From Pseudomonadales bacterium (GTDB lineage: Bacteria; Pseudomonadota; Gammaproteobacteria; Pseudomonadales; Pseudohongiellaceae): a DNA stretch of 62,750 bases. The stretch covers positions 1 through 62,750 of the forward strand of contig JANQJM010000076.1 of the NCBI GenBank assembly GCA_028281635.1, in the 5' to 3' direction. The number at the start of each line of letters is the position of its first letter. The stretch's first letter is position 1. The position numbers and the translations under genes are program-made. The notes under the pieces were generated by a model. It was not told where the DNA came from, made no database searches, and was given only the letters and a program-made list of their open reading frames with translations. Below are positions 14,651 to 57,218 of this stretch, one piece after another.

Positions 14651-14819
14651 GGAGCTACTGCGCTTATGTCCATGGATGGAAGGTATGCCGACAATGCAGG
14701 AGCAATTGTCGGCGGGCACTGGCTTCGTTATGAAAGTTTTTGAGCCAGTCATTTAACATTAGTAAACTCCTGACTCAAAAAACTTCCATGCCTCGCATTG
14801 CCGGCGCTCGTAACGCTCC
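14651..14819. repeat. Long imperfect palindrome, copy A of a paired intergenic element
   Basis: This non-coding element fills most of the 229-base gap between two convergent genes. The outer arms are GGAGCTACTGCGC (from 14651) and GGCGCTCGTAACGCTCC (to 14819). The inner stem is 14731-14747 against 14771-14788. The 23-base loop starts GTCATTTA and ends TAAACTCC. A roughly 50-base insert in the left arm carries its own nine-bp hairpin, GCCGACAAT / ATTGTCGGC (14687-14713). Compared with copy B at 57100-57218, the loop ends, the CTTCGTTAT and ATGCCTCG joints and the outer arms are shared, while stem bases change in pairs. It is not a classical terminator, because the stem is followed by A, not T. 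Confidence 0.8.
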
Positions 14820-14878
14820 TCGAAGCTGGGACTCCAGTAGCTAAAGAACGATAGCTATATAGTTTTTTACAGAAATCC

Positions 14879-17551
14879 CTAGCGCAACGCTGGATCAGAT
14901 TTGTCTGGATCGATATTTAATTGCGCAGAGAATTTTTTGAGCTGTTTGCTGTCAATTTCACCTGCTCTCAGTAAACCTACCAGCGCTGCGTGGCAGATAT
15001 AATCGGGACTGATTTCGAAATAGTCTCTTAGGGTTTCTCTGGATTCGCTCAGGCCATAGCCGTCAGTTCCTAACGCAAGATAGTTATCGGGCATCCACGG
15101 TGCGATACTCCTGGGTAAGGCCTTCATCCAGTCCGAGACGGCGACGTAAGTTCCCTGGGTCTTTCCAAACAAGGTCGAAACATAAGGCTTCTTATCTTTC
15201 TGTTGTGGGTGTAAGCGATTGTCACGTTCGCAGGCTTCGGCATCCCGATACAGTTCGTTATAACTGGTGACACTCCAAACGGAAACTTTGAATCCAAAGT
15301 CTTCCAGCTTACTCTGTGCGGACAGAACTTGCTGCATGATCGATCCACTTCCCAACAGGTGCACGGTGGAGTCACTCTCCTTAGCAGTAGACTGAAGCAG
15401 GTATGCCCCTTTGATGATGCCTGCAGGTGCTGATTTACTTTTTGGCATCGCTGGCATTGCATAGTTTTCATTGTAGGCAGTCAGGTAATAGAAAATGTTC
15501 TCCTGTTCCTGGTACATCCTACGAATGCCTTCTCTTACAATAACAACCAGTTCATAAGCAAAGGCAGGGTCATAGCTCTTCAGGTTGGGATAGGTATTGG
15601 CAATCACCTGTGAATGCCCATCCTGATGTTGAATGCCTTCGCCATTCAGGGTGGTGCGCCCTGCGGTGCCTCCAATCAGGAAACCTCGGCACAGCATGTC
15701 GCCACAAGACCAGATCATGTCCCCCACGCGCTGAAAGCCGAATATCGAATAAAAGAAATAGAAGGGGATCATTGGCAGGCCGTGCACTGAGTAGGCAGTA
15801 CCGGCGGCCATAAAAGAAGCCAATGCTCCGGTTTCACAAATGCCTTCCTGCAGGATTTGACCGTCTTTGGCCTCCCGATAGGCTACCAGGGTGTCAGCAT
15901 CCACTGGCGTGTAGTGTTGTCCCTGCAAGGAGAAGATACCGGCGATCTTAAACAAAGCCTCGAGACCAAAAGTGCGCGCCTCATCGGGCACTATAGGTAC
16001 TATGTATTTGTTAAGTGACTTGTCTCGCATCAAGATTGAGAGAATGCGGACCAGTGCCATGGTGGTAGACATGGGCCGGCTATTGCTGCTTTCTGTTAAG
16101 GCTTCGAAAGCACTTAAAGGTGGCGGTTTCAGCTTTTTACTCTCGGTTTGTCGTTTGGGAATTGCACCACCAAGTTCCGCGCGTCTGGCCTTCAGGTATT
16201 TGATCTCGTCGCTGTCGGCCGCCGGTTTATAAAACTGTGCCTGCCTGATTGCCTCGCTGCTCAGCGGGATGTCGAAATTCCTGGCGATCATGAGGCGTTG
16301 CTCTTCATCGAAGTTCTTCTTCTGATGTACCGTATTGCTGCCGGCGGCATCGACCAGGCCATCACCTTTAACAGTCTTGATGAGAATGACCGTAGGTTTG
16401 CCATTACTTTTAACTGCACGAGCATAGGCCGCATAAATTTTTTCTACGTCTTGGCCGCCACGCTTAATCTGTTTAACTTCTTCATCCGATAGCTCATTCA
16501 TCATGCCTTCGAGTTCAGCATTTCCATCCACCCAATGTTCCCGTTGTTGATTGCCAGGTAACACAGAGTAGCGCTGGTAATCACCATCCACACACTCTTC
16601 CATGCGTCGGCGCAGCGTTCCATTGATGTCCGCTTGCAGGAGCTTGTCCCAACCGCCTCCCCAAATGACTTTGATCACGTTCCAGCCTGAACCGATAAAC
16701 GAAGCCTCCAGTTCTTGTATGATTTTTCCATTGCCACGTACAGGGCCATCCAAACGTTGTAAATTGCAATTGATCACCAGAATTAGGTTGTCCAGTCGCT
16801 CTCGTGATGCGATGTTGATGGTGCCGAGGACTTCAGGCTCATCGGCTTCACCATCACCAATAAAACACCAAACCTTGCCTCCGAGCTTAGGCTTCAATCC
16901 CCGGTTTTCCAGGTACTTTGCGAAGCGTGCCTGATAGATTGCTGTTGGCGTAGAAAGCCCCATGGAAGCATTTGGAACTTGCCAATAATCTGGCATGGAA
17001 CGCGGGTGGGGATAGGAAGTTATGCCGCCTTCAGGCTGCAGTTCCCGCCGGAAATTTTTGATCTGTTTCTCTTCGAGTTCACCTTCCAACCAGGAACGCG
17101 CATAGATGCCCGGGCTGGTGTGAGGTTGCAAGATGACCAGATCACCGCCGTAGTCCTCGGATTTATTGCGGAAGAAATGATTGAATCCCACTTCCATCAA
17201 GGTGGCAGCTGAGGCGTAGGTTGCAATATGTCCACCTACACCTGTTCCTGCATCCTGCCCCTGCAGGACCATTGCCATGGCATTCCAGCGCAGGATATTT
17301 TCCAGGCGTTGTTCGACTGCTGTATCGCCGGGATATTCTGGTTGTTCAGAGACCGGGATAGTATTGAGATAAGGCGTATTAACAGCGACCTGTTGAGTAT
17401 CGATATGATGTTCGCTGCACCAGGAAGAGAGGCAATTCAGAATTTCCCGCACGCCGTCATCACCATATTCTTCGAGAATATTGGTCAGCGCTTCGCGCCA
17501 TTCCTCTTTATCTTGCTCGATTGCAGCGTCGGGTTGGAGTTGCTTATTCAA
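14879..17551 (-). CDS. aceE: Pyruvate dehydrogenase E1 component, homodimeric type
   Basis: This 890-residue thiamine-diphosphate enzyme decarboxylates pyruvate and passes the acetyl group to lipoyl E2. The length and order fit the AceE family: an N-terminal ThDP-binding part with GGHIATYASAATLMEVGFNHFF, the GDGEADEPEVLGTI motif (GDG...N type, binding Mg-ThDP), then the pyrimidine-binding part with YEGIxETG-like EGICETGALASFMAAGTAY, and the C-terminal domain ending at VGLLRAGEI. The start is TTG at 17551, with only a weak ribosome site; no better start is nearby. The E2 and E3 genes are not adjacent in this window, which is unusual for gammaproteobacteria. Confidence 0.95.
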   Translation of the reverse strand: MNKQLQPDAAIEQDKEEWREALTNILEEYGDDGVREILNCLSSWCSEHHIDTQQVAVNTPYLNTIPVSEQPEYPGDTAVEQRLENILRWNAMAMVLQGQDAGTGVGGHIATYASAATLMEVGFNHFFRNKSEDYGGDLVILQPHTSPGIYARSWLEGELEEKQIKNFRRELQPEGGITSYPHPRSMPDYWQVPNASMGLSTPTAIYQARFAKYLENRGLKPKLGGKVWCFIGDGEADEPEVLGTINIASRERLDNLILVINCNLQRLDGPVRGNGKIIQELEASFIGSGWNVIKVIWGGGWDKLLQADINGTLRRRMEECVDGDYQRYSVLPGNQQREHWVDGNAELEGMMNELSDEEVKQIKRGGQDVEKIYAAYARAVKSNGKPTVILIKTVKGDGLVDAAGSNTVHQKKNFDEEQRLMIARNFDIPLSSEAIRQAQFYKPAADSDEIKYLKARRAELGGAIPKRQTESKKLKPPPLSAFEALTESSNSRPMSTTMALVRILSILMRDKSLNKYIVPIVPDEARTFGLEALFKIAGIFSLQGQHYTPVDADTLVAYREAKDGQILQEGICETGALASFMAAGTAYSVHGLPMIPFYFFYSIFGFQRVGDMIWSCGDMLCRGFLIGGTAGRTTLNGEGIQHQDGHSQVIANTYPNLKSYDPAFAYELVVIVREGIRRMYQEQENIFYYLTAYNENYAMPAMPKSKSAPAGIIKGAYLLQSTAKESDSTVHLLGSGSIMQQVLSAQSKLEDFGFKVSVWSVTSYNELYRDAEACERDNRLHPQQKDKKPYVSTLFGKTQGTYVAVSDWMKALPRSIAPWMPDNYLALGTDGYGLSESRETLRDYFEISPDYICHAALVGLLRAGEIDSKQLKKFSAQLNIDPDKSDPALR

Positions 17552-17645
17552 GTGACTTACCGATACCTAAGGGCATTGTGCTTTGTATGCCTCTAAAGCT
17601 ACACCCGACTGAGCCAAGAACCAAGTCGGAAAACGTCAGCTTTAA

Positions 17646-18242
17646 CTAGGGAGCGGAATGGCTGCCCGGATTTGAATCCAAAGAAGAAAGATAGCTGTAA
17701 ATCGTATTAGCATCTTCATCCACACAGCTACCACTTTCAGTAAAGATGAAGTCAGCAGAAACCTCCTGAATAGAAGGTGCCTTGGCGATAGTGGCTTTGA
17801 ATGTTTCGATTGCCATCGGTGGCAGTCCCAGGTCTCGATAAAAATCGATCAGGATCAGCATCTCCTCATCGCTGAGTTGCTGCGCCAGTATCAGTGCTAT
17901 GCCGTCTTCAAAGTTTTCCCATGCGTACACTCGCTGGTAGCAACTTCTGATGCTGGACAACACATGCTGTGGAAGCCTGACATCCGCTTCCATGTTTACG
18001 ATACTGGTGTAGGAGCGAATGATATTGCTGGTTTGATGAGATGTGCGCGCTGCGAAATGTTCTGCTGTGCCGCTGACACGCAGAAGACGTTTGGCGTAAC
18101 GCAGCGAATTGTCGGATTCTGCGTGCAGCGCTGATCCACCAAAGTTCAGGAGCAGCGCCAGCACTGACAATCCAACAGCGAAATTCTTTCTAGTTCTGAT
18201 TCTCGCTGACAATTTCGAACACCACAGTAACGGATGTCGCAT
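17646..18242 (-). CDS. DUF2059-like exported protein
   Basis: This 198-residue protein has an internal hydrophobic stretch at residues 23-40 (VGLSVLALLLNFGGSALHA), which looks like a signal peptide or anchor after a basic N-tail. The segment LSDEEMLILIDFYRDLGLPPMAIETFKATI matches the DUF2059 helical pattern (a Lxx-E-hxxhxxFYxx-hG-type motif). Function unknown, likely periplasmic. Its start overlaps the 3' end of the SIMPL gene by 53 bases, so it is probably translated as the second gene of that unit. Starting further downstream at a GTG near residue 23 would shorten the overlap and cannot be excluded. Confidence 0.65.
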   Translation of the reverse strand: MRHPLLWCSKLSARIRTRKNFAVGLSVLALLLNFGGSALHAESDNSLRYAKRLLRVSGTAEHFAARTSHQTSNIIRSYTSIVNMEADVRLPQHVLSSIRSCYQRVYAWENFEDGIALILAQQLSDEEMLILIDFYRDLGLPPMAIETFKATIAKAPSIQEVSADFIFTESGSCVDEDANTIYSYLSSLDSNPGSHSAP

Positions 18243-18987
18243 ATTCTACTTCATCGAAACTGGGTGCAACACTGGCAGCGGTAGACCCCTGACTCGCTAA
18301 GCTGCTGTCTTGAAGAGCTTCAACCGCTATCGACTCGCTCATGGCTGCCATGGGCATCGCTCGTTGCATCTGGCGGATACCGCCGTAGAAAAAGTTTACA
18401 GCTCTAAGTTCCAATCTCAGATTGCTTTCATAGAAGGCCTTTTGTTCCATCACGTCTTGCAGTGCTAACTCTCTCACTTCCTGTTCGAATACTTCTTCCT
18501 CGCTGTGTTCAAATTCGATACGTTCGAATTCCACTTCCTCGCTCTCATCCGCTGCGGCAGCCAACAGCTGTAAGTGGGATTCATCGGACACATCAACATC
18601 CAGCCGTGCACTTACTTCAAACGAGGAAGGATTGCGGCCGAACAAACCGTACTGTGGTGAACTGGCAAATTTGGAATTGTTGATGTCTTCGTTGGCGATT
18701 CCCGCGGCCATAAATTGATCGATCAAACCCCTGCGTAATTCCTGATTCTGAGTCATTGCCGCGTTCAGTGAGCGTGCTTCAGTGGTGATCAGCAGACTGA
18801 CTTTCGCGACATCCTTGTAGGCAGTGAGTTCGGCATCCCCATTGATATTAACCGTATTGGGACGAGGGAACAGAAATCCTCTGAGTTCATCCGGGGTTCC
18901 AGAAAGTTGCGGTTGAGCGGAGGCAGAGTGAACCAAGCAAAGGCTGGAAGCAGTAAATACCAGCAATGCCTTAAGCTGTTTCGTCAT
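18190..18987 (-). CDS. SIMPL-domain (DUF541) periplasmic protein
   Basis: This 265-residue protein has a signal peptide (MTKQLKALLVFTASSLCLVHSASA) followed by a SIMPL/DUF541 domain. Recognisable features are the opening strand VNINGDAELTAYKDVAKVSLLITTEARSL, then LRRGLIDQFMAAGIANEDINNSKF and the FEVSARLDVDV strand. An acidic linker (ESEEVEFERIEFEHSEEEVFEQ) is prominent. This domain type occurs in E. coli YggE and related oxidative-stress-linked proteins of uncertain function. ATG 18987 has an AAGGAC ribosome site; the frame continues upstream to 19050 without family similarity. It is divergent from the MarR-type regulator gene, which is therefore a candidate controller. Confidence 0.85.
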   Translation of the reverse strand: MTKQLKALLVFTASSLCLVHSASAQPQLSGTPDELRGFLFPRPNTVNINGDAELTAYKDVAKVSLLITTEARSLNAAMTQNQELRRGLIDQFMAAGIANEDINNSKFASSPQYGLFGRNPSSFEVSARLDVDVSDESHLQLLAAAADESEEVEFERIEFEHSEEEVFEQEVRELALQDVMEQKAFYESNLRLELRAVNFFYGGIRQMQRAMPMAAMSESIAVEALQDSSLASQGSTAASVAPSFDEVEYATSVTVVFEIVSENQN

Positions 18988-19169
18988 GATGTTGTCCTTT
19001 GTGCGCCGGAGCGCCACAGATGTGTTTGGGAGCAAGGGATAACTTGCCATTACTATTCAAGACGCAGGTCGGGCGACGAAAGTTTGCCTCGGATTTAGCG
19101 GCTTTCCGATTGACTGCCCACTCTGCGAATGACAACATGCTGACATAAGACGATTGAATGGAGTAAGTA

Positions 19170-19607
19170 GTGCATTCGTCCAAACGTGTTCTTTTTCTGG
19201 ACCTGGTCCTGTCAATTTTTCGCCTCAACGGTTTACTCATCGCCGAAGGCGATGCCATGACCGAAAAACTCGGTCTCACCCATGCCCGATGGAAAGTTAT
19301 CGGTGCTATCGCGCTTTCAAGTTCTGGTTTGACCGTACCGGGTGTTGCCAGGGTCCTTGGTCAATCGCGACAAGCGGTACAACGCATTACCGATGTCATG
19401 GTTGCTGATGGATTATTGGTCTACGCAGCGAATCCCAAGCATAAGCGTTCAATGCTGGTGACACTTAGCGATAAAGGTAAAGACGTCTACAATGTTCTGC
19501 GAGAAGTTCAGGACCCCTGGGCCATCGAGTCCACCGAAGACATTCCCATCGAAGAGCTGGAGTCTGCTCTCCGACTCATTCACCGGTTGATCAAGAGATT
19601 TAATTAA
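19170..19607 (+). CDS. MarR-family transcriptional regulator
   Basis: This 145-residue winged-helix protein shows the MarR pattern: an N-terminal dimerisation helix (LFLDLVLSIFRLNGLLIAEGD), a helix-turn-helix in LTVPGVARVLGQSRQAVQRITDVMVADGLLVYA, and the wing strand ANPKHKRSMLVTLSDKGKDVY. It should bind DNA as a dimer and respond to a small ligand or oxidation. The GTG start at 19170 is set by a GGAG site 6 bases upstream. The gene is divergent from the SIMPL/DUF2059 pair and lies 16 bases before nnr; whether it regulates either is inference. Confidence 0.88.
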   Translation: MHSSKRVLFLDLVLSIFRLNGLLIAEGDAMTEKLGLTHARWKVIGAIALSSSGLTVPGVARVLGQSRQAVQRITDVMVADGLLVYAANPKHKRSMLVTLSDKGKDVYNVLREVQDPWAIESTEDIPIEELESALRLIHRLIKRFN

Positions 19608-19623
19608 GCACAGGGCAAAAACC

Positions 19624-21189
19624 ATGTCCTCGCCCCATAGCACAATACCTCGCGATCTGTACTTGGCAGCTCAAGTGCAGCAGTTAGATCGAATTGCCAT
19701 CGAACAGTTCGGGATTGAGGGCTTTACACTCATGCGCCGGGCTGGTTTGGTGTGTTTTCAGGCATTGATTGAGCAGTGGCCCGATACTCGACGAGTAATA
19801 GTTTTTGCAGGCGGCGGCAACAACGGGGGCGATGCCTATATCGTTGCCGGTTTAGCTCACGAACAGGGCCAGCAGGTGCAGGTGGTTTTCCTGAGTGACC
19901 CGCAAAACCTGAAAGGAGACGCCAGTCTGGCATGGCAATGGGCGGTGTCGCGCAACGTTCCAATGCTTTCGTTTGCCGCATTCGCTGACACCACGATGCC
20001 GGACAATCAACAGACTGTTATCGTCGATGGTCTGCTGGGCACAGGCCTGGATAGAGAAGTCGCAGGTGATTATCGAAGCGCCATCGATTTTATTAATAGT
20101 AACCAGACACCAGTGCTGGCCATCGATATTCCGTCTGGCTTGAACGCTGACACTGGCATGCCGATGGGCATGGCCGTCATAGCAGACGTCACCGCTTCCT
20201 TTATAGGGATGAAACAGGGTCTGCTGACGGGTGTTGCGGGTAATCATGTCGGTACCCTCTTGTTTAGTGACCTAGATGTGCCGCCGGAGGTGTATTCTCA
20301 CACCAGTGCGCCAAAGTCACCGACGACTCGGATCGACATCCTCAATGCCAGCAAACAGCTTGGGCCGCGCGCCACCGCCGCTCACAAAGGTGACTTTGGT
20401 CATGTGGTAGTCGTTGGTGGAGATTATGGCTTCGGCGGTGCTGCATTAATGGCTGCTGAGACAGCTTTGAGGTCCGGCGCCGGATTAGTAAGTGTCATCA
20501 CCCGTTCCCAACATCGCTCCGCCATGCTGGCACGTCGGCCGGAATTGATGGTCGCGGGCAGCGAGGATGAAACTCACGATAGCGCCGCGCTTCTGCAAAA
20601 AGCCAATGTGATTGTAGTTGGCCCCGGTCTGGGCAGAGGGGAATGGTCAAGGGCACAGCTCCAGGCCTGCCTGAGTGTTCAGCTTCACCATAACATTCCT
20701 CTTGTAATCGATGCGGATGGATTGAATCTCCTCGCTGAAAGAGATCAGGGTGAATCTAACGCAACCCAGATAAAAAGAGACAACTGGATACTTACGCCAC
20801 ATCCAGGTGAGGCTGCACGCTTGCTGCAATGTGAAAACAGCCAGGTTGCAGAAAATAGATTCGCGGCAGTGCGGAAACTGCAGGAGAAATGGGGTGGGCA
20901 GTGTTTGTTGAAAGGTCACGGCTCACTTGTTGCGAACAAAGGCGAAAGTGAAAGAGTGTATCTGTGCAGCGAAGGCAATCCTGGCATGGCTACCGGAGGT
21001 ATGGGCGATGTGCTGGCGGGATTGATCGGTGGTCTGATTGCGCAGCGCCTGGAGCCAGCCCGGGCTTTACGGGCGGCGGTCTGTATCCACGGTGAAGCCG
21101 CCGATCTTGCCGCTCAACCTGGTGAGCGGGGGTTAATCGCGACAGATCTGTTGCCGCACATTCGACAACTGGTCAATACCCAATACTGA
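19624..21189 (+). CDS. nnr: Bifunctional NAD(P)H-hydrate epimerase / ADP-dependent dehydratase
   Basis: This 521-residue cytosolic enzyme repairs damaged NAD(P)H hydrates. The N-terminal YjeF-N epimerase half (about 1-220) contains VFAGGGNNGGDAYIVAGLA and VDGLLGTGLDREV. The C-terminal half is the ribokinase-like dehydratase, with HKGDFGHVVVVGGDYGFGGAALMAAE, VVGPGLGRG, VIDADGLN, TPHPGEAARLL and GNPGMATGGMGDVLAGLIGGL. Both halves look complete. It precedes tsaE by 23 bases, the order commonly seen in gammaproteobacteria, so it is probably the head of an nnr-tsaE-amidase unit. Confidence 0.95.
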   Translation: MSSPHSTIPRDLYLAAQVQQLDRIAIEQFGIEGFTLMRRAGLVCFQALIEQWPDTRRVIVFAGGGNNGGDAYIVAGLAHEQGQQVQVVFLSDPQNLKGDASLAWQWAVSRNVPMLSFAAFADTTMPDNQQTVIVDGLLGTGLDREVAGDYRSAIDFINSNQTPVLAIDIPSGLNADTGMPMGMAVIADVTASFIGMKQGLLTGVAGNHVGTLLFSDLDVPPEVYSHTSAPKSPTTRIDILNASKQLGPRATAAHKGDFGHVVVVGGDYGFGGAALMAAETALRSGAGLVSVITRSQHRSAMLARRPELMVAGSEDETHDSAALLQKANVIVVGPGLGRGEWSRAQLQACLSVQLHHNIPLVIDADGLNLLAERDQGESNATQIKRDNWILTPHPGEAARLLQCENSQVAENRFAAVRKLQEKWGGQCLLKGHGSLVANKGESERVYLCSEGNPGMATGGMGDVLAGLIGGLIAQRLEPARALRAAVCIHGEAADLAAQPGERGLIATDLLPHIRQLVNTQY

Positions 21190-21212
21190 TCAGAATTATT
21201 GGGCGATCAAAG

Positions 21213-21752
21213 ATGACTGGTCAGTACTCTGAAGAACTGGACGACGAGCAAGCGACACTTGACTTTGGGGCGCGACTGGCTCGCACAACTTTCCTGGAAG
21301 CGAATCAAAAGCCAATTGAGCATGCTGGTTCTACTACCACCCCTGGTCATTCGTCACTGGGTGGTATTATTCATTTGCAGGGCGATCTGGGCGCGGGAAA
21401 AACTACCCTGACCCGAGGCATTCTCCGTGGTTTCGGATTCGAAGGTGCCGTTAAGAGTCCAACCTACACTCTGGTGGAACCTTATGAGTTTGAACTCTGT
21501 AACATCTATCATTTCGATCTCTATCGACTGGCCGATGCAGAAGAAGTCTCGTACCTGGGAGCAGAAGACTATTTTCAGGATGCTAATCTGTGCATCGTGG
21601 AATGGCCCGAGAAGGGCTTGGATTTCATACCTCCGGCGGATCTCAGTATTCAGTTGCAAGGCACTGGAACAGCGCGCCATTTGAGCTGTCAAACCAAGTC
21701 TGAAAAAGGCGAAACCATAGCCAAAAGATTGTGGGGATCGGGCCGAAGTTAA
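21213..21752 (+). CDS. tsaE: tRNA threonylcarbamoyladenosine biosynthesis ATPase TsaE
   Basis: This 179-residue ATPase is needed for t6A37 modification of ANN-reading tRNAs, working with TsaB and TsaD. The P-loop GDLGAGKTTLTRGILRGFG, then VKSPTYTLVEPYE, FDLYRLADAEEVSYLGAEDYF and CIVEWPEKG, are the standard TsaE landmarks. At 179 residues it is longer than the roughly 155 usual for the family. The extra part is a polar insertion before the P-loop (about residues 29-48, rich in Thr, Gly and Pro). It sits between nnr and the amidase gene as in related genomes. Confidence 0.93.
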   Translation: MTGQYSEELDDEQATLDFGARLARTTFLEANQKPIEHAGSTTTPGHSSLGGIIHLQGDLGAGKTTLTRGILRGFGFEGAVKSPTYTLVEPYEFELCNIYHFDLYRLADAEEVSYLGAEDYFQDANLCIVEWPEKGLDFIPPADLSIQLQGTGTARHLSCQTKSEKGETIAKRLWGSGRS

Positions 21753-21789
21753 TAGACAACCCAGAGAAGCACTCAAGGGCGCCGTAATA

Positions 21790-23307
21790 GTGTGTTTGAC
21801 CAAGATGTTTAGGTCTTTGTTAAAGAACGTCAGTTTAATCCCAGCTCTGACTCTATTCGTTCCATTTGTCTATGGCGCAGATGTCGAAGACCTGCGCATG
21901 TGGCGCGCGCCGGACCATACTCGCCTGGTTTTTGATCTTAGTGAGTCTGTCAGATACAACTTATTTACATTAGATAGTCCTGATCGGGTTGTTATCGATA
22001 TCGAAAATTCCACCACATCGAACCAGTTCAACGGTCTCGATTTCACTGGCAGTCCGATTGAGTCAATCCGAAGTGGCGCCAGAGAGGGGGACACGCTACG
22101 AATCGTGCTTGATCTCAATGCTGAAGTACGGCCTTCGAGTTTTAGTTTGGCTCCCAACAGTGAGTTCGGAAATCGTCTTGTAGTAGATTTGTACGACCTG
22201 GCGCCGGCACCAGGAAGCAGTTCACGAGTGCCGGTATCAGCGCCAGCTGTTTCAGATGAGAAGCGAGATATCGTAGTGGCAATATCAGCCGGCCATGGTG
22301 GCGAAGATCCAGGCGCTATTAGCTCCGATGGGCGCATCAAGGAAAAAAACATCACGCTCGCTATTTCCAAAGCTCTCTACAATCGCCTTTCAAGTGCGCC
22401 TGGATATTCACCGGTCATGATCAGAGAAGGAGATTATTACGTTGAGTTAAAGAAGCGACCGGAGATTGCACGGCAGCGGCGAGCCGATCTGTTTGTGGCA
22501 ATACACGCCGATTGGTATCGCAACTCGCGAGCACGAGGAGCCACTATCTACGCGTTATCAGGTGACAGGGCAGACCGCGAAAACTCTGCGCGTGTAGCGG
22601 AAAAGGAAAACAGTTCCGATTTGCTAGGCGGTGTTAGTGGCGATTTGACACTAGGTAACCTGGCAGATGATGTGGCTTTAACGCTGGTGTCTTTGCAAAT
22701 GGCATGGAGCATGGAGCAAAGCCTGATAGCCGGTACCAGAATTCTTGAAAGCCTCGACGGCATAACGCAAATTCGTCGCGATAAAGTTCAACAAGCTTCA
22801 CTGCAAGTGCTTAACTCACCGGATATCCCTTCTATTCTTATCGAAACCGGTTACCTGACTAATCCAGAGGAGGCGCGGCGCCTCAATACTTCCGGGTTCC
22901 AGGAGCGCATGGCTGGCGCCTTGGCCCAAGGCATCATGAACTATTTTTACGATGCGCCGCCGGAGGGCACACTGCTAGCCTGGCAGAAAGAGAACGGTAT
23001 CGTACCTGGCTCATACGCAGTGAAACGCGGTGATAGCCTGTCCGTTATTGCGCAACGATTTGGCGTCTCCACGAGCGACTTGAAAACAGTCAATCAATTG
23101 AACACTGACACCATCCATATCGGTCAGGTGCTTACTATTCCGGGCGGTGAAACACTCGCAGTTTCCGAACATACTATTCGCCGAGGCGAGACCCTATCAG
23201 AGATTGCGCAGCTTTATCGTGTTAGCGTTGCGAGTATTCGCGAAGCCAACGATTTGTCCAACGACCGTATCCTGGTCGGACAGGTGCTTAAAATCCCTAC
23301 ACTTTAG
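21790..23307 (+). CDS. amiC: N-acetylmuramoyl-L-alanine amidase with AMIN and two LysM domains
   Basis: This 505-residue periplasmic Zn enzyme cleaves the bond between muramic acid and the stem peptide during cell separation. Order: signal peptide (to about 30), AMIN targeting domain (about 30-140, starting VEDLRMWRAPDHTRLVFDL), amidase_3 domain (about 155-380) with SAGHGGEDPGA, RIKEKNIT, LFVAIHADW and the catalytic SILIETGYLTN, then two LysM repeats (YAVKRGDSLSVIAQRFGV and HTIRRGETLSEIAQLYRV) that bind glycan. The LysM pair is the AmiB-like layout of Pseudomonas, so amiB would be an equal name. The GTG at 21790 has an AAGGG site; an ATG at 21805 is the alternative start. Confidence 0.92.
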   Translation: MCLTKMFRSLLKNVSLIPALTLFVPFVYGADVEDLRMWRAPDHTRLVFDLSESVRYNLFTLDSPDRVVIDIENSTTSNQFNGLDFTGSPIESIRSGAREGDTLRIVLDLNAEVRPSSFSLAPNSEFGNRLVVDLYDLAPAPGSSSRVPVSAPAVSDEKRDIVVAISAGHGGEDPGAISSDGRIKEKNITLAISKALYNRLSSAPGYSPVMIREGDYYVELKKRPEIARQRRADLFVAIHADWYRNSRARGATIYALSGDRADRENSARVAEKENSSDLLGGVSGDLTLGNLADDVALTLVSLQMAWSMEQSLIAGTRILESLDGITQIRRDKVQQASLQVLNSPDIPSILIETGYLTNPEEARRLNTSGFQERMAGALAQGIMNYFYDAPPEGTLLAWQKENGIVPGSYAVKRGDSLSVIAQRFGVSTSDLKTVNQLNTDTIHIGQVLTIPGGETLAVSEHTIRRGETLSEIAQLYRVSVASIREANDLSNDRILVGQVLKIPTL

Positions 23308-23379: not shown

Positions 23380-23410
23380 GCTTGCTTTGCTACCCATCGC
23401 CAAGCCCACC

Positions 23411-49641: not shown

Positions 49642-49673
49642 ATTGCCTGAATATTCGCTAATTTTTCCTTCTG

Positions 49674-51095
49674 ATGTCTGAAACCTACGAACCCAGTGGT
49701 CCCTCCAGCTCGTCTTCCTCGACGTCCAGTAACCTGACCACTTTGAAAGTGCCACCCCATTCCGTGGAAGCGGAACAAGCGGTGTTGGGCGGCCTGATGT
49801 TGGATAACAGTGAATGGGACAATATTGCCGACGTACTGCTTCCCGAAGATTTCTATCGCGCCGAGCATCAATTGATATACAAGATGATGATGCAACAAAG
49901 CGAAGCCAACAGTCCGATTGATGTGGTGACGCTGGTTGAGGCTCTGAACAGCCTGGGTGAACTGGCTACCGCTGGCGGCATCGATTACCTGAGTGAACTA
50001 GCCGGTAATGCGCGGGGTACTGCCAATATCCAGGCTTATGCAGACATTATTCGCGAACGGGCCATCCTGCGTCGCTTGATCAGCGTAGCTAACGGCATCG
50101 CCGATTCGGGTTACAACACCGGAGGTAAGAAAGCCGCTGCAATTCTGGACGAAGCGGAGCAGCAGGTTTTCAATATTGCTGATGAGCGCCCCCAGGATCA
50201 GGGCCCGGTGTTTATTAATCCGCTGCTGGCGAAAGCTGTTGATCGCATCGATGAATTGGCAGGTTCAGATGGAGATCTCACGGGATTATCCAGTGGCTAC
50301 AAAGATCTGGATGAGATGACCTCTGGTTGGCAAAAATCGGATCTGGTCATCGTCGCCGGCAGACCCTCTATGGGTAAAACTGCCTTCGCCATGAATCTGG
50401 TAGAGCATGCCATTCTCAACGGCGATCACCCAGCGCTGGTATTCAGTCTGGAGATGCCAGCGGAGAGTTTGATCTTTCGTTTGCTTTCTTCTATCGGCAA
50501 GATTGATCAAAGCAAATTGCGAACCGGTAATCTGAGCGAAGATGATTGGCCTGGATTCAATGATGCTGTCGGAAAGTTAAAAGACCGCCCGCTGTTTATT
50601 GATGACAGTCCGGGCATCAGTCCCATGGAAATGCGCTCACGAGCGCGTCGCATAGTGCGAGAACACGGTGCTATCGGAATGATCGTGGTGGACTATTTGC
50701 AACTCATGCAGATTAAAGGCACTTCTGAAAATCGAGTAAATGAAATTTCTGAAATCTCTCGCTCACTGAAACTACTGGCGAGAGAATTCGAATGTCCGGT
50801 TATCGCGTTGTCGCAGCTCAATCGTGGATTGGAACAGCGGCCTAATAAACGGCCCGTCATGTCTGATCTGCGTGAATCGGGTGCTATAGAACAAGATGCT
50901 GATGTCATTACCTTCATCTATCGTGATGAGGTGTATAACGAAGACTCACCGGACAAAGGCATTGCTGAGATCATCATAGGCAAGCAGCGAAATGGACCAA
51001 TAGGTACGGTGAGGCTTAGCTATCTTGGCCATTTCACCCGTTTCGAGAATTTTGCTCAGCCTCGCTATGACGAGAGTTACACTCACGGAATGTAG
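49674..51095 (+). CDS. dnaB: Replicative DNA helicase DnaB
   Basis: This 473-residue hexameric helicase unwinds the replication fork. It has the N-terminal domain (about 25-130: VPPHSVEAEQAVLGGLMLDN, RAEHQLIYKMM), a linker, and the RecA-like ATPase with GRPSMGKTAFAMN (Walker A), EMPAESLIFRLLSSIGKIDQ, MIVVDYLQLMQ (Walker B) and LRESGAIEQDADVITFIYRDEVY. A Ser-rich N-tail (to about 22) is an addition. It lacks a good ribosome site. It starts just after the rplI terminator and is followed by alr. Confidence 0.97.
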   Translation: MSETYEPSGPSSSSSSTSSNLTTLKVPPHSVEAEQAVLGGLMLDNSEWDNIADVLLPEDFYRAEHQLIYKMMMQQSEANSPIDVVTLVEALNSLGELATAGGIDYLSELAGNARGTANIQAYADIIRERAILRRLISVANGIADSGYNTGGKKAAAILDEAEQQVFNIADERPQDQGPVFINPLLAKAVDRIDELAGSDGDLTGLSSGYKDLDEMTSGWQKSDLVIVAGRPSMGKTAFAMNLVEHAILNGDHPALVFSLEMPAESLIFRLLSSIGKIDQSKLRTGNLSEDDWPGFNDAVGKLKDRPLFIDDSPGISPMEMRSRARRIVREHGAIGMIVVDYLQLMQIKGTSENRVNEISEISRSLKLLAREFECPVIALSQLNRGLEQRPNKRPVMSDLRESGAIEQDADVITFIYRDEVYNEDSPDKGIAEIIIGKQRNGPIGTVRLSYLGHFTRFENFAQPRYDESYTHGM

Positions 51096-51119
51096 TAATA
51101 CCAGGCCTAAGAACTTCCC

Positions 51120-52268
51120 ATGACTATTGCAAGCCGTCGCGCCTGGGCGACCATCGATCTCAACGCCCTGCGCAAGAATCTCACTCGCGTGCGTTCTCTG
51201 TGTCCAACTTCCAAGATCTATCCGGTCATTAAATCCAACGCGTATGGTCACGGTGTGGCCGAGGCTGCCGCAGCGGTTAAGAATAGTCATACCAATATTG
51301 CAGGTTATGGTGTCGCTACAGTGGATGAAGCAATTAGTCTGCGAGAACTGGATCCGGAGCTGCCTATTCTATTGCTTAATGGTTTCATGACAGCGGAAGA
51401 GCTGAAGGAGTGTTTGCATCTGCGAGTGGAACCGGTAGTGCATAGCGATTATCAGGTTCAACTTATCGAAGCGCTTTTCACGGATGAAATCCTGGGCGAT
51501 CAACGTAAGTTTTGGATCAAATACAACACCGGCATGAACCGTTTGGGCATGGATCGGGAGCTGAGCCGGGAGAGTTATCTCAAACTGCTGGGGTTTCCCG
51601 GCACAGAGTTGGTGTTGATGTCTCACCTCGCTTGCGCCGATGATCCGGACAATGAAAAGTTTGCCGGGTTTACCCATCAGCAACTCAATGATTTGCTGAG
51701 CCTGCGCGGTGAGCTGGTTGCCAGCAGTCATCGTGATGTGCCCAGCAGTATGGCAGCGTCAGCAGGTATTCTGCATTGGCCTGATTCCCATTTAGATATA
51801 GTAAGACCCGGGGTCATGCTGTATGGCAGCTCGCCGATGGCGAATGAAACCGGGGAAGAGCTGGGCTTGCAAGCCGTGATGACATTGTCGTCACGCCTTA
51901 TCACCATTCGCACCCTGCAGGCTGGAGATAGTATCGGTTACGGCGCGACCTATGTATGTGACAGGGAAACCAAGGTCGGTACAGTATCGATTGGCTACGG
52001 TGATGGTTATCCTCGCAGCGCCGAGAATGGCACGCCTGTCATAGTCAAGACGGCTGCCGGCAATACTCGCACCCGACTCATTGGCAGAGTATCCATGGAT
52101 ATGATTACCATTGATCTGACCGGGATAGACGATGTGCAGATTGATGATGAGGTTGTGCTTTGGGGGGATGGGCTCTGCGCCGATGAGGTGGCTCGTTCGA
52201 CCGGGACCATTTCTTACGAATTGTTTTGCAAAGTCACCTCTCGTGTGCCATTTGAATATAAGAACTAA
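51120..52268 (+). CDS. alr: Alanine racemase
   Basis: This 382-residue PLP enzyme makes D-alanine for peptidoglycan. The PLP lysine is in YPVIKSNAYGHGV (about residue 39). Other landmarks are YNTGMNRLGMD, SAGILHWPDSHLDIVRPGVMLYGSSP, the second catalytic tyrosine in IGYGATYVCDRE, VSIGYGDGYPRS and VSMDMITIDLT. It follows dnaB by 24 bases as in related species, and precedes radA by 19 bases. Confidence 0.96.
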   Translation: MTIASRRAWATIDLNALRKNLTRVRSLCPTSKIYPVIKSNAYGHGVAEAAAAVKNSHTNIAGYGVATVDEAISLRELDPELPILLLNGFMTAEELKECLHLRVEPVVHSDYQVQLIEALFTDEILGDQRKFWIKYNTGMNRLGMDRELSRESYLKLLGFPGTELVLMSHLACADDPDNEKFAGFTHQQLNDLLSLRGELVASSHRDVPSSMAASAGILHWPDSHLDIVRPGVMLYGSSPMANETGEELGLQAVMTLSSRLITIRTLQAGDSIGYGATYVCDRETKVGTVSIGYGDGYPRSAENGTPVIVKTAAGNTRTRLIGRVSMDMITIDLTGIDDVQIDDEVVLWGDGLCADEVARSTGTISYELFCKVTSRVPFEYKN

Positions 52269-52287
52269 CTCTATCGTCTAACACCAA

Positions 52288-53661
52288 ATGGCGAAATCGA
52301 AAATAGCTTTTGTCTGTACCGAATGCGGCGCTGAACATGGTCAGTGGCAGGGTCAATGTTCGTCCTGCAAGGCGTGGAACACGCTCACGCAAATTAATCT
52401 CGGCAGCTCTTCTTCACCGGCGACTAAAGCTGAATTTCGACGCAAGGGCTATGCAGGCGAGCAGTCCAATGTGCAGACGCTATCGGAAATCGATGTGCAG
52501 TCATTACCAAGATTTTCCAGCACCATTGGCGAACTTGACCGGGTGTTGGGAGGAGGTCTGGTTCCCGGTTCGGTGGTACTGATTGGCGGCAATCCTGGAG
52601 CCGGCAAGAGCACCTTGCTCTTGCAGATCATGTGCTTGTTGGCTGATGCACAAAAATCCGCTCTCTATGTCACCGGTGAAGAATCTCTGCAACAAGTAGG
52701 TATGCGTGCTCAGCGACTGGGCTTACCGAAAGACGATCTGAAGATGTTGGCGGAAACCAACGTCGAGCAAATTACCCAGGCGGCTCAGGAACACAGTCCG
52801 GAGTTGCTGGTTGTAGATTCCATTCAAGTGATGCATAGCGCCGATGTTCCCTCAGCACCGGGCAGCGTTTCGCAGGTACGGGAGTGCGCCGCTTACCTTA
52901 TTCAATATGCGAAACAAACCAACACCGTATTGTTCCTGGTTGGACACGTTACCAAGGAAGGCAATCTGGCTGGTCCGAAGGTGCTGGAGCATATGATTGA
53001 TTGCTTCATCATGCTGGAGGGCGGCACAGACAGTAAGTATCGCATCCTGCGAAGTCAGAAAAACCGATTTGGTGCTGTCAACGAACTTGGCGTGTTTGCC
53101 ATGACTGAGCAAGGCATGAGGGAAGTGAAAAATCCTTCGGCGATTTTTCTTGCCCGTACTGAAGAAGACAGCGCAGGTTCTCTGGTCATGGTGCTCTGGG
53201 AAGGAACTCGCCCACTGTTGGTGGAGATTCAGGCACTGGTCGATAGCAGCCCGCTAGGCAATCCACGGCGAGTAGCTGTGGGTTTGGAACAGAATCGTTT
53301 AGCCATGTTGTTGGCCGTACTGCATCGCCATGGCGGTTTATACATGGCCGATCAAGATGTCTTCGTGAATGTGGTAGGGGGCGTCAAAGTGAGTGAAACC
53401 AGTGCCGACCTCGCGCTGCTGCTGGCAATTGTTTCCAGTTTCAAAGATTCGGCCATCGATAAGCGCACAGTCGTATTTGGAGAAGTTGGACTCGCCGGTG
53501 AAATCCGTCCAGTGCCTGGAGGCCAGGAACGTTTGCAAGAGGCCGCCAAGCACGGCTTCACTCGCGCCATCGTGCCTAAAGCCAATGTGCCCAAGGCAAA
53601 GATTGATGGCCTGGAGATCGTCGGTGTTACCAAGATTTCTCAGGCACTGGATGCGCTTTGA
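52288..53661 (+). CDS. radA: DNA repair protein RadA
   Basis: This 457-residue RecA-family ATPase/helicase acts in branch migration. It has the N-terminal zinc finger (CTECGAEHGQWQGQCSSC), Walker A GGNPGAGKSTLLLQ, the diagnostic SQKNRFGAVNELG (KNRFG), and the C-terminal Lon-protease-like domain with VGGVKVSETSADLALLLAI and FGEVGLAGEIRPVPGG. Length is normal. Its stop lies only 3 bases from that of the convergent MFS gene. Confidence 0.96.
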   Translation: MAKSKIAFVCTECGAEHGQWQGQCSSCKAWNTLTQINLGSSSSPATKAEFRRKGYAGEQSNVQTLSEIDVQSLPRFSSTIGELDRVLGGGLVPGSVVLIGGNPGAGKSTLLLQIMCLLADAQKSALYVTGEESLQQVGMRAQRLGLPKDDLKMLAETNVEQITQAAQEHSPELLVVDSIQVMHSADVPSAPGSVSQVRECAAYLIQYAKQTNTVLFLVGHVTKEGNLAGPKVLEHMIDCFIMLEGGTDSKYRILRSQKNRFGAVNELGVFAMTEQGMREVKNPSAIFLARTEEDSAGSLVMVLWEGTRPLLVEIQALVDSSPLGNPRRVAVGLEQNRLAMLLAVLHRHGGLYMADQDVFVNVVGGVKVSETSADLALLLAIVSSFKDSAIDKRTVVFGEVGLAGEIRPVPGGQERLQEAAKHGFTRAIVPKANVPKAKIDGLEIVGVTKISQALDAL

Positions 53662-53664
53662 GAA

Positions 53665-55023
53665 TCAGTCAGGCGCCCGTTCAAAATCCTGCTTGATCGT
53701 TTTGGCTGCAAACCAATAGTGTATAGCGCACCATACATTAACCATCACCGTAAGTGACATGGCATAGCGCAGAGCATTATCACCAAACTGCGGTGTCAGA
53801 AAATCACTGGCAAAGCCAGTTAGCATTGGCCCCAATCCCAGGCCGATCAAGTTAAGCATGAACAGGAGTACAGCCGAGCCCAGGGCGCGCATACGAATGC
53901 CCACCAGAAAATGGGTGGATGCGATGCAAGGAGCCAGGTACCAACCACCACAGAAAGAAGTGAAGAGATAGGAGTAAACAGCGTAGTAGCCGTCAGGCAT
54001 GATCAGAAACGTGTTGAGCGCAAATGGAATGGCCAACACTGTGGAGACAAAAGGTATCCACATATACCAGGTTGTATCTCCAGTCCGCTGCTTGAGTTTA
54101 TCAGTGACCCAGCCACCGAAAAATGTCCCGCTCAAACCACCAATACCGGCAATCATTCCGTAATACCAGCCAACGTCCAGGATGGGCATGCCATGTACGC
54201 GTCCAAGAAATAGTGGCATAAAGTTACCGATGCCATAGGTTACAAACGCATGTAAGGCGCAGGCGAAAGACAGATGTCGAAATGATTTACGTTGCCACAG
54301 GAAGCCCATTACACCGAAGAAACTTGGTGGCGATTGATCTCTGCGATTCTCAGCGAGGCCTCTGGGTGGTTCCTTAACAACAAATCGAACCAACAGAGAA
54401 AGAAACAGTCCCGGAATGGCGACCACCACAAATGCGGTTCGCCAGTCGAAGTACTGCACGAGATAGGCACCGCCAACAGTGCCGACCAGAATTCCCCCAT
54501 AGACACCCAGCGAATAGATGGAAAGGGCCGTCGCGCGTTGTTCCGCGGGAAAGATATCAGAGACGATTGAATGGGAGGGTGGGGAGCCACCAGCTTCACC
54601 GACACCCACGCCGAAGCGAGCAAGAAACAATTGCAAAAAGTTCTGAGCTGCACCACACAGCGCAGTCATGAAACTCCATACTGCTACTGCAATCGCGACT
54701 ATGTTGCGACGATTCCCCACATCAGCCCAGCGAGCGATGGGAATGCCGAGTGTTGTGTAGATGAAGGCAAAGGCCAACCCGGAAAGCATCCCGAACTGCC
54801 CATCGGAAATCTGTAAATCCTCGATAATGGGTTGGGCGAGAACATTGATTACCTGTCGGTCGACGAAATTGCAGATGTAAACAACGGTGAGGATGCCGAG
54901 GACAAGATAGCGGTAAGCCGGCCTTTGGTAAGCTTTGGCTATAGCAGCATCTTCATGCGAGAGCCCACTATTTTCTTTCTCAGTAATGGCCGCTGAAGAC
55001 GCTTGCTCGCTTAGTTCAGACAT
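53665..55023 (-). CDS. MFS transporter, Spinster-like
   Basis: This 452-residue membrane protein has 12 predicted helices. Motif A-like IARWADVGNRRN lies between helices 2 and 3, together with FVDRQVINVLAQPIIEDLQISDGQFGMLSGLAFAFIYTTLG and GVGVGEAGGSPPSHSIVSDIFP, which mark the Spinster-like MFS branch common in marine and aromatic-degrading proteobacteria. The substrate is unknown (members of this branch have been linked to lipids and small carboxylates). An acidic N-tail precedes the first helix. It is monocistronic and divergent from the ABC exporter pair. Confidence 0.85.
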   Translation of the reverse strand: MSELSEQASSAAITEKENSGLSHEDAAIAKAYQRPAYRYLVLGILTVVYICNFVDRQVINVLAQPIIEDLQISDGQFGMLSGLAFAFIYTTLGIPIARWADVGNRRNIVAIAVAVWSFMTALCGAAQNFLQLFLARFGVGVGEAGGSPPSHSIVSDIFPAEQRATALSIYSLGVYGGILVGTVGGAYLVQYFDWRTAFVVVAIPGLFLSLLVRFVVKEPPRGLAENRRDQSPPSFFGVMGFLWQRKSFRHLSFACALHAFVTYGIGNFMPLFLGRVHGMPILDVGWYYGMIAGIGGLSGTFFGGWVTDKLKQRTGDTTWYMWIPFVSTVLAIPFALNTFLIMPDGYYAVYSYLFTSFCGGWYLAPCIASTHFLVGIRMRALGSAVLLFMLNLIGLGLGPMLTGFASDFLTPQFGDNALRYAMSLTVMVNVWCAIHYWFAAKTIKQDFERAPD

Positions 55024-55344
55024 TAGCCAGCTCCCTTGTTAATTCCTGATTCTTGTTTCTTTTTCTGGAATCGCAGGGCGCATGTAAGCATGTATTCCTG
55101 GCAGAGTCTATGTAGCAGATTGCAGTGAAATTGCTGTCAAGCTGACAACGATCTACTCTGTATTGTCTTCCTTACCGAATCGAATCCAGCTCCCATCATC
55201 GACCGACATTGGATCTTGTCATACGCTAAACAGAGTCCATCCCAGATAGAAACAGGGGATAGCTGAACTCAATGCGCCGATGGCCATAACCCCATAACTA
55301 CTGTATGGATTACTCACATATAGCCCCTCTGCATAGAGCTGGCA
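55024..55344. other. Divergent intergenic region, no gene seen
   Basis: This region separates the minus-strand MFS gene from the plus-strand ABC exporter genes. Apart from the exporter promoter at its right edge I see no convincing gene, repeat or hairpin. A long in-frame open stretch before the ABC gene (from 55305) has no ribosome site. Confidence 0.5.
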
Positions 55345-55373
55345 TTGTAATTGATCTGCGGTGGTTGCATAAT
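55345..55373 (+). promoter_or_regulatory. Sigma-70 promoter of the ABC-2 exporter genes
   Basis: TTGTAA (55345-55350) and CATAAT (55368-55373) are 17 bases apart. The start near 55380 would lie only about 3 bases before the ATG at 55383, and there is no ribosome site, so the message would be nearly leaderless. Confidence 0.55.
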
Positions 55374-55382
55374 TTTGCGCCC

Positions 55383-56321
55383 ATGGGCGCAGTATCAGAG
55401 CCAATTCTCACCGTCTCCAACCTCAATAAAACCTATGAAGGTGGATTTCAGGCACTCAAGGCAGTCAATCTTGAGATTGCTAAAGGCGAAATCCTCGCCC
55501 TTCTGGGTCCCAATGGTGCCGGTAAAACCACACTAATCTCGACCATCTGTGGCATCGTGAGCCCCACAGCGGGCAGCGTTCGGGTGGCTGGCTTCGATAT
55601 CGTCAAAGATTTTCGCAGAACCCGTTCCCTCATTGGTCTGGTGCCTCAGGAATTGACAACGGATTCATTCGAATCGGTTTGGAGTACTGTGTCGTTCAGC
55701 CGAGGGCTGTTCGGCAAACCACCGAATGCTGCTCACATTGAGAAAGTGCTCAGGGAACTCTCTCTTTGGGACAAGAAAGACGACATGATTCGCACTCTGT
55801 CGGGGGGTATGAAGCGCAGAGTGTTGATTGCGAAAGCACTATCCCATGAGCCTTCAATCTTGTTTCTCGATGAACCCACTGCCGGAGTTGATGTTTCGTT
55901 GCGTAAGGATATGTGGAAGATCGTCAACGATCTTCGCGCTAGTGGAGTAACTATTATTCTGACCACACATTACATTGAGGAGGCAGAGGAAATCGCAGAT
56001 CGAATCGGTGTCATCAACAATGGTGAGATTATTCTTGTCGAAGAGAAAAACAACCTGATGCAAAAGTTGGGCAAGAAGCAGCTGATACTTGAACTCGATC
56101 AGGCACTCGCTGAGTTACCAGCGAAACTCGCCGCTTATCAATTGGAGCTTGCTAACGATGGGAATCGCCTTGTTTACACCTTCGACAACCAGAGTAATCA
56201 TAGTGGAATCACCGAACTTTTGGATGATCTCAAAGCAGCGGGAATTGTTTTTACGGATTTAAATACTTCACAGAGCTCACTGGAAGAGATTTTCGTGAGC
56301 CTGGTGGCCGAGTCTTCTTAA
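55383..56321 (+). CDS. ABC-2 type exporter ATP-binding protein
   Basis: This 312-residue ATPase has [14 protein letters not shown] (Walker A), LVPQELTTD (Q-loop), [15 protein letters not shown] (signature), [12 protein letters not shown] (Walker B and D-loop) and the switch histidine in [11 protein letters not shown]-terminal extension of about 70 residues resembles that of DrrA/YadG-type ATPases that drive ABC-2 permeases. ATG 55383 is chosen because upstream codons carry no family similarity and lack a ribosome site. The permease gene follows 9 bases after. The substrate is unknown; drugs, polysaccharides or lipids are typical. Confidence 0.9.
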
Positions 56322-56330
56322 GGAAAGTTG

Positions 56331-57092
56331 ATGAATATCTACGGCATCCTGGCCATTTACAAATTCGAAATGGCACGTACCAAGCGCACCTTGCTGCAGA
56401 GCATTGTAGCGCCTGTAATTACGACGTCACTGTATTTTATTGTCTTCGGAGCCGCGATTGGATCTCGTATACAGCAAGTGGAAGGGGTGAGTTACGGTGC
56501 ATTCATCGTACCAGGCTTAATTATGCTGAACCTGCTCACCCACAGCATCTCCAATGCATCGTTTGCCATCTATTTTCCCAAATTTGTAGGGACTGTTTAC
56601 GAAATGCTCTCTGCGCCGATTTCGACGCTTGAAGTTGTTTTGGGCTATGTCGGCGCAGCTGCAACCAAATCCATATTGCTTGGCTTAATCATTCTAATCA
56701 CGGCCTCATTTTTCATCGAGATGCGGATCGCCCACCCATTTATCATGCTGGCCTTCGTCGTATTGACGGCAGTCTCATTTAGTCTCCTGGGCTTCATCCT
56801 GGGTATTTGGGCCGATAATTTTGAGAAACTCTCCGTAGTGCCTATGCTGGTAATTACGCCGTTGGTGTTTTTGGGCGGGAGCTTTTATTCCACCGACATG
56901 TTACCGGCTTTCTGGCAATCGATTTCATTACTCAATCCGGTGTTATATCTGGTGAGCGGATTGCGTTGGAGTTTCTATGAGATTTCGGAAGTGAACGTGT
57001 GGATCAGCCTGATCAGCATTACGGCTTTTATGCTGGCTTGCTTCAGTGTGGTGGTGATGATGTTTAAAACAGGCTACAAACTGCGATCTTAA
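56331..57092 (+). CDS. ABC-2 type exporter permease
   Basis: This 253-residue membrane protein has six hydrophobic segments and ABC-2 family phrases: [66 protein letters not shown], and [37 protein letters not shown], close in layout to E. coli YadH. The ATG at 56331 has AGGAAAG 4 bases upstream. It pairs with the ATPase directly before it. It ends 8 bases before the long palindrome at 57100. Confidence 0.88.
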
Positions 57093-57099
57093 CTTTAAC

Positions 57100-57218
57100 G
57101 GGCTACTGAGCTTGCAATCTCTTCGTTATAGGAAGATTTTGGGCGAGTCATTTACCAATACATAAACTCCTCGCCCAAAATTTTCCTATGCCTCGACCTT
57201 GCGGCGCTCAGTACGCCC
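57100..57218. repeat. Long imperfect palindrome, copy B of a paired intergenic element
   Basis: Outer arms GGGCTACTGAGC (57100-57111) and GCTCAGTACGCCC (57206-57218) pair apart from one bulged base. The inner stem ATAGGAAGATTTTGGGCGA (57128-57146) pairs with 57171-57189 over 19 positions with a single G-T wobble. The 24-base loop starts GTCATTTA and ends TAAACTCC, as in copy A (14651-14819). It fills the gap between convergent genes. It has no T-run after the stem. Confidence 0.8.

Follow-up and report, generated by a model that had tools for sequence, protein, structure and literature searches.

Two palindromes between convergent genes of a Pseudohongiellaceae genome belong to a structured family of mobile-element-like hairpins related to ERIC

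A stretch of 62,750 nucleotides from a Pseudomonadales bacterium of the family Pseudohongiellaceae (contig JANQJM010000076.1; hereafter the window) carries two long palindromes, elements A and B, which belong to one structured family and form part of a distant branch of the ERIC (enterobacterial repetitive intergenic consensus) kind. Both are very probably copies of a non-autonomous mobile element, a miniature inverted-repeat transposable element (MITE), of an ERIC-related superfamily. The stems of this family covary, its two strands differ in the mismatches that they tolerate, and covariance models connect it with ERIC. In Bacillota and Bacteroidota its copies are polarised with respect to stop codons. 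Target duplications flank copies in two genomes, in one of which the element ends are common with those of an insertion sequence (IS).

The two palindromes had been described from the sequence in an earlier note (the original prediction), and direct reading bore out their positions, their loop and their boxes. The strand had to be revised, as the plus strand was described there whereas the conserved fold (GGAG...TGAC) is that of the minus strand. The parts of the elements are as follows:

14651-14819, conserved fold on the minus strand: element A, with outer arms GGAGCGTTACGAGCGCC ... GCGCAGTAGCTCC and an extra module of about 50 bases in one arm
57100-57218, conserved fold on the minus strand: element B, a complete copy without the extra module
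14747-14770, minus strand: apical motif of A (GGAG-TTTA...TAAA-TGACT), forming a helix that contains a GAG/TGA internal loop
57146-57170, minus strand: apical motif of B
14788-14795, minus strand: left box of A, CGAGGCAT as read on that strand (family form CRAGGC)
14723-14731, minus strand: right box of A, ATAACGAAG as read on that strand (family form AACGMAG)
57188-57195, minus strand: left box of B, CGAGGCAT
57121-57129, minus strand: right box of B, ATAACGAAG
14667-14717, strand unassigned: extra module of A, which has a hairpin of its own, CCGACAATGCAGGAGCAATTGTCGG

By direct reading, CTTCGTTAT begins at 14723 in A and 57121 in B, ATGCCTCG ends at 14795 and 57195, and the loop GTCATTTA...TAAACTCC sits at 14748-14770 and 57147-57170, respectively. 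The inner stems of the two elements differ in pairs, as had been claimed. The loop pattern has two matches in the window (maximum of 0 over 100 dinucleotide shuffles), and its exact form occurs three times in the 4.24 Mb genome, the reversed control pattern not at all. Predicted minus-strand folds reach -64.4 kcal/mol for B (z -10.14) and -70.7 kcal/mol for A (z -6.94), and the plus strand of B has a z of -10.64; each was equalled by 0 of 200 shuffles.

A scan with a near-identical loop pattern, covering 84,980 species with a single genome per species, returned at least 117 stretches. Read in the GGAG orientation, many of those listed have CRAGGC on the left, AACGMAG on the right, stems that are paired yet differ, and a paired outer arm; under a loose rule both anchors were present in 83 of 119 rows among the matches listed. 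Sixty-three of these 83 copies (62 distinct) make up alignment A1, the basis of covariance model R1. It contains 36 copies from Bacteroidota, 17 from Bacillota, two from Mucispirillum, one from Chlorobiota, three from the window's genome and four from Pseudomonadota (two Legionella feeleii, one Photobacterium, one Chromatiaceae). Taxon labels of loci are the titles of the sequence records, and by these titles the family reaches Bacteroidota, Bacillota, Deferribacterota and Chlorobiota.

Pairing was seen in 80.7% of the 2270 cells of A1, compared with 61.8% when the 3' letters were shuffled and 38-51% when the partners were slid by one to three columns. The covariation score was 0.472 (0.174 in shuffled alignments), a value reached in 0 of 500 shuffles. 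Both sides had changed in 31 of 37 pairs, where shuffles gave 28.7; by this measure alone the contrast is weak. The shuffle control leaves relatedness uncorrected, whereas the slide control corrects for it but favours the given structure. Copies of the window's genome that lay outside the scan show paired changes in the apical stem as well (CTTAC/GTAAG in L132 and L133, CATAC/GTATG in L130), and copy L134 has a gap there. Columns 24 and 105 of A1, within the box loop, covary with no standard pairing (A-C in 31 of 63 rows, G-A in 22 of 63). In a tree of the A1 rows, built from few columns, the Legionella and Photobacterium copies nest within those of marine Bacteroidota (Cryomorphaceae), a possible hint of transfer between phyla.

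The scan of the genome with a covariance model that the original prediction had proposed yielded eight copies (R1, E <= 2.6e-6); the R1 match for A spans 14701-14816 (64.5 bits) and that for B 57100-57217 (67.5 bits). A match at E <= 0.001 was found in 24 of 58 genomes taken as relatives, the window's own included, with 0-14 copies each and a patchy occurrence within the genus. Eight copies in the genome, 24 genomes with matches and the covariation contradict the outcome of two places only and no covariation under which the similarity was to be put down to local duplication or chance. The proposal of a mobile or selected structured family is supported by the copies in the own genome and in relatives and by covariation above both controls. 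In phylum samples (E <= 1e-4, centre genome included) R1 matched 51 of 299 genomes for the phylum of the window, 23 of 296 for that of a Bacteroidetes metagenome-assembled genome (MAG; G060) and 5 of 299 for that of a Clostridia MAG (G062); these counts are likely lower bounds because 12 candidates per genome were scored under strict filters. Nine carriers reached through individual loci hold at least 4 to 145 matches each at E <= 0.01, the richest being G060 (at least 145), G059 (at least 108) and Legionella feeleii (at least 25). A copy on a Sulfurovum plasmid scored 35.4 bits with R1. A viral origin was considered and rejected, a slightly stricter apex pattern being present in only two viral contigs; under R1 one of them holds a full element (L126, 82.9 bits) and the other the apex alone (L125, 21.9 bits).

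That the elements are ordinary bidirectional terminators, or chance palindromes made alike through local duplication, is very improbable. Both lie between convergent genes, and some clostridial copies adjoin intrinsic terminators by eye, which speaks for this reading; against it stand the copies across many genomes and phyla with their covariation and the conservation of mismatched internal loops. Moreover, direct reading found no U-run after the hairpin at A or B, which an intrinsic terminator would have. The case that had been made against an ordinary terminator holds.

Relatedness to ERIC was assessed with models from both sides. ERIC as printed in the available part of PMC2759123 (Table 1a), in the other orientation, has an AAGGC box, CAGGAGCTTACATAAGTAAGTGACTGGGG and AACGCAG, that is, matching parts in matching order. 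Model R1, built with zero Enterobacteriaceae sequences and one Vibrionaceae copy (L116, from Photobacterium), matched 12 of 13 ERIC loci, representing 8 of 9 distinct sites, with scores of 30.6-64.1 bits; the loci come from E. coli, Klebsiella, Enterobacter and Lelliottia. A K-12 stretch fetched irrespective of ERIC (L229) had no R1 match. Conversely, model R2, made from nine Enterobacteriaceae ERICs, gave 55 matches at E <= 0.1 (best 1e-5) on 100 loci (707 kb) from Bacteroidota, Bacillota, Legionella and others, although its score is partly built in because these loci were chosen by their apical motif. Fifty-four of the 55 coincide with R1 matches, and the eight loci among the 100 that have the apical motif but lack an R1 match gave no R2 match either. 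Half of the 100 loci had no R2 match. In the window's genome R2 matched only L133 (3.3e-6) and L132 (3.5e-4). In R1 alignments (model positions 1-118) the window copies and the E. coli ERIC are built alike, the outer arm being followed by the AAGGC/AACG box loop, the inner stem, the GGAG/TGAC loop and the apical stem. The model of each side detects elements of the other side, and the likeness to ERIC, drawn as a comparison in the original prediction, goes beyond analogy.

Evidence of mobility was found in two carriers. Both ends could be parsed in 45 of 53 copies in G060, and 37 of these 45 are flanked by identical hexamers, mostly TANNTA (9.3 expected; 2000 shuffles gave no more than 19). G052, which belongs to the window's order, has ten very similar copies ending in CAGGCTGTTGAAATTC or a near variant, and in eight of them the YTAR tetramers on the two flanks are identical by eye. 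There are 54 occurrences of the 12-base end AGGCTGTTGAAA in G052, where two pairs of such ends, 1.26 and 1.30 kb apart, flank a transposase gene (Pfam DUF772 and DDE_Tnp_1). Judged by these sequences, the structured element in G052 has the appearance of a MITE belonging to an IS with a DDE transposase. The two loci, L213 and L214, each represent an IS of about 1.27 kb with AGGCTGTTGAAA ends; the transposase frame is open in L213 and broken in L214. Four further G052 loci (L215, L219, L220, L224) are longer copies with an additional piece within the apex or arm of the same element. Among the loci examined, no inverted pair of the exact TGTCCATAAAGT end at a distance of 600-2500 bases, as expected of an IS, was found.

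As is typical of MITEs, the elements vary in presence at orthologous sites and have no coding capacity: read on from the conserved NTG, 72 of the 121 non-redundant copies meet a stop in their first 20 codons, where random codons would give about 75. A mini-ORF (open reading frame, ORF) with the NTG behind GGAG as start was rejected: 119 of 121 copies have ATG or GTG there, but the frame is open no more than by chance. A recurrent neighbouring gene as mobiliser was likewise dismissed, the widest cluster among 577 ORFs of element-bearing loci being present in four loci at scattered distances. The closest relative, G971, whose proteins at the two places are 91% and 98% identical to those of the window, carries an element at both sites, with the hairpin apex deleted. 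The apex loss in both G971 elements (L349 and L369) is as expected for palindrome instability. At nine other orthologous sites per gene no full element was visible by eye. One of these sites, locus L370 of G011 behind the same permease gene as element B, holds a possible diverged or remnant element with CTTTGTC, GTCGTTTAC, CTCC and GCCTTG. The extra bases of A, reported in the original prediction, were confirmed; they are found again next to elements L130, L137 and L138 of the family and at the orthologous site L349; a weaker match lies in L275, away from the element of that locus.

Head-to-tail arrays with a spacing of 117-128 bases comprise six copies in L031, four in L049 and three each in L161 and L147, and neighbours within G060 arrays have one TANNTA in common. 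Arrays L031, L049, L147, L161, L310 and L327 each keep a single orientation. Such arrays, along with stems conserved in shape and variable in sequence, fixed internal loops, polarity and a one-strand signature, would be explained by shape recognition if the element were an attC-type single-strand recombination site or a hairpin mobilised by an IS200/RAYT-like transposase of the HUH class. This is unlikely, since target duplications of 4 and 6 bases point to a DDE enzyme and no gene cluster lies beside copies in more than four loci.

The two strands of the element are not equivalent. Isolated mismatches between two Watson-Crick pairs in helices of the GGAG strand were G-T in 136 cases versus A-C in 48, and A-G in 132 versus C-T in 7, some of the A-G being at fixed motif positions. 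Equal strands would balance these mismatches; as the counts are unequal, the GGAG strand appears to be under selection to fold. This asymmetry cannot distinguish RNA from DNA. Quite conceivably a protein reads the folded single strand as DNA; reading as RNA is slightly less likely. The fold may thus act as RNA, in that the GGAG strand would be transcribed from a far gene or its own promoter and its loops read by an RNase, the ribosome or a chaperone, with altered stability of the neighbouring mRNA; we regard this as possible, short of probable. The strong, strand-specific tolerance of G-U and G-A speaks for it, as do the reviews PMC2229807 and PMC10969869, which in their available parts report that ERIC in Yersinia reduces upstream mRNA via an RNase E site and that its orientation is crucial. 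However, in 59 of 81 places between tandem genes, though in only 11 of 19 in the window's order, the GGAG strand runs antisense to the genes, so that read-through mRNA is mostly of the other strand; this frequent position opposite the mRNA of the abutted gene leans slightly towards a role as DNA, in transposition or replication. Rfam also speaks against RNA, as it gave at gathering score only a tRNA over the window and nothing at E <= 1 over eight loci (44,029 bases).

Position relative to genes was determined at 257 distinct places, 11 of them inside an ORF, by naive ORF calling. At the 3' flank of the folded strand, the one with AACG, the element was faced by a gene end in 160 cases and by a gene start in 72; at the 5' flank the numbers were 111 and 115. 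Stop codons lay at most 15 bases from the model end in 85 of 160 cases on the 3' side versus 6 of 111 on the 5' side (Mann-Whitney p 2.9e-13), where the model end differs from the element end (the true left end in G060 is about 24 bases further out). Within 100 bases the counts were 132 and 58. The polarity holds in Bacillota (stop to start 37 to 2 on the 3' side, 12 to 24 on the 5' side) and in Bacteroidota (38 to 16 and 22 to 31), and in the window's order stops within 15 bases numbered 16 on the 3' side versus 3 on the 5' side. In five complete genomes, where local GC skew served to tell the leading strand, the GGAG strand opposed it in 26 of 41 cases (p 0.12); for convergent gaps the count was 10 of 12. 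This is no more than suggestive of replication strand as the cause. Polarity may arise from insertion preference or from selection. Clostridial copies L098, L059, L086, L070 and L040 adjoin, by eye, an apparent intrinsic terminator, one arm of which is repeated in the left flank of L098 and L059.

At the two window copies, tail-to-tail genes and nearby stop codons had been pointed out in the original prediction, and both gaps are indeed convergent, the elements beginning one base (A) and seven bases (B) after a TAA. The genes in front of them are:

13753-14649, plus strand: DUF4159 gene, TAA at 14647-14649, ending one base short of the 3' end of A
56328-57092, plus strand: ABC-2 permease gene, TAA at 57090-57092, ending seven bases from the 3' end of B

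The opposite-strand genes facing A and B encode a pyruvate dehydrogenase E1 and a MORN-repeat protein, respectively. The DUF4159 protein has the same last residue in 10 of 10 orthologues read, the permease in 8 of 10 (one codon longer in two), so that each element sits behind a natural stop.

According to the interpretation which we favour, the element is an imperfect palindrome of about 115-170 bases composed of an outer arm, a CRAGGC/AACGMAG internal loop, a variable inner stem, a GGAG/TGAC internal loop and a short apical stem. DDE transposases of resident ISs would act on the element ends and copy it in trans, leaving a duplication of a short target with TA in it, which is YTAR in one relative and TANNTA in a Bacteroidetes genome. 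Copies often adjoin stop codons, the folded strand pointing its AACG end toward the gene end; compensatory change keeps the GGAG strand foldable, boxes and internal loops remaining fixed, and a protein would presumably read the folded single strand.

Several observations weigh against this interpretation. No target duplication is visible by direct reading at either window copy, and the IS partner is based on about 12-15 shared bases in one genome, G052. The apical letters of A1 are invariant because the search pattern fixed them, which does not apply to the stems. With regard to ERIC, locus L264 was left unmatched by R1 in both runs, and the L116 copy in R1 comes from Vibrionaceae, a family already known for ERIC. 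R2 missed both window copies (E <= 1, 79,910 bases of the own genome), and the elements are therefore called ERIC relatives and not ERIC proper; ERIC proper would be matched by an ERIC-only model and have a host range of Enterobacteriaceae and Vibrionaceae, neither of which applies to them. As to polarity, the window's order has none by count (stop to start 30 to 12 on the 3' side, 29 to 13 on the 5' side), five complete genomes gave 15 to 14 on both sides, and G060 shows little (25 to 21 and 26 to 21). Finally, the folding strand usually lies opposite to the mRNA of the gene next to which it sits, a position not predicted by the simplest reading as a 3' untranslated region.

Going further, we tentatively suggest that ERIC may be one branch of ancient, pan-bacterial mobile hairpins. 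Their conserved unit would be a one-strand DNA shape with fixed internal loops and not a sequence, read by a conserved protein of host or element, packaged in the IS ends of the respective lineage and, in some lineages, placed with near-strict stop polarity (37 of 39 in Bacillota).

ERIC has long been in use for bacterial typing. Its host range is given as Enterobacteriaceae and Vibrionaceae in the available part of a review covering ERIC in enteric bacteria and vibrios (PMC10969869), and a survey of stem-loop families in 40 genomes lists it, in the part available, for E. coli, Yersinia pestis and Vibrio cholerae (PMC2267715). The ERIC and MITE literature searched, including the accessible portions of PMC2229807, PMC10969869, PMC2267715, PMC2759123 and PMC4383904, contained no report outside Gammaproteobacteria and named no transposase for ERIC, and a literature search with the sequence letters of the core returned no relevant paper. 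The kind of element is already known, and its breadth, covariation, duplications with an IS partner and polarity are undescribed as far as searched. If the core is common to ERIC and to elements of Bacteroidota and Bacillota, the origin of ERIC would be far older, or movement between phyla would have occurred. High-copy carriers with clear duplications, together with the IS of a relative with matching ends, make the mobilising enzyme directly testable, and the one-strand signature and stop-codon polarity provide two measurable clues to function.

Among known systems, the family resembles REP/BIME elements of RAYT transposases, as generally understood, in being palindromic, intergenic and arranged in arrays; it is much longer, lacks their terminal GTAG/CGTC tag and shows target duplications in two genomes. 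With integron attC sites, as commonly described, it has in common that shape is kept while stems vary and that one strand matters; unlike these, no recurrent integrase or cassette gene accompanies the copies, and the boxes differ. Like the IS-derived bacterial MITEs treated in the available part of PMC10969869, the elements are short, non-coding and mostly intergenic, with a duplicated target in two genomes and IS ends in one of these, but they differ from them by a conserved structured core between lineage-variable end sequences. The closest match is ERIC (also IRU or RU-1), with which they share length, a single long imperfect hairpin, the GGAG-stem-TGAC apex, the AAGGC and AACGCA boxes, intergenic location, multiple copies and MITE features. 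For ERIC, a table in the part of the review PMC2229807 that was available gives a duplication and TA at the termini; the duplications seen here are YTAR and TANNTA. Whereas the apical stem of ERIC is CTTAC/GTAAG, here it is TTTA/TAAA, with other arms and ends and with hosts beyond Enterobacteriaceae and Vibrionaceae.

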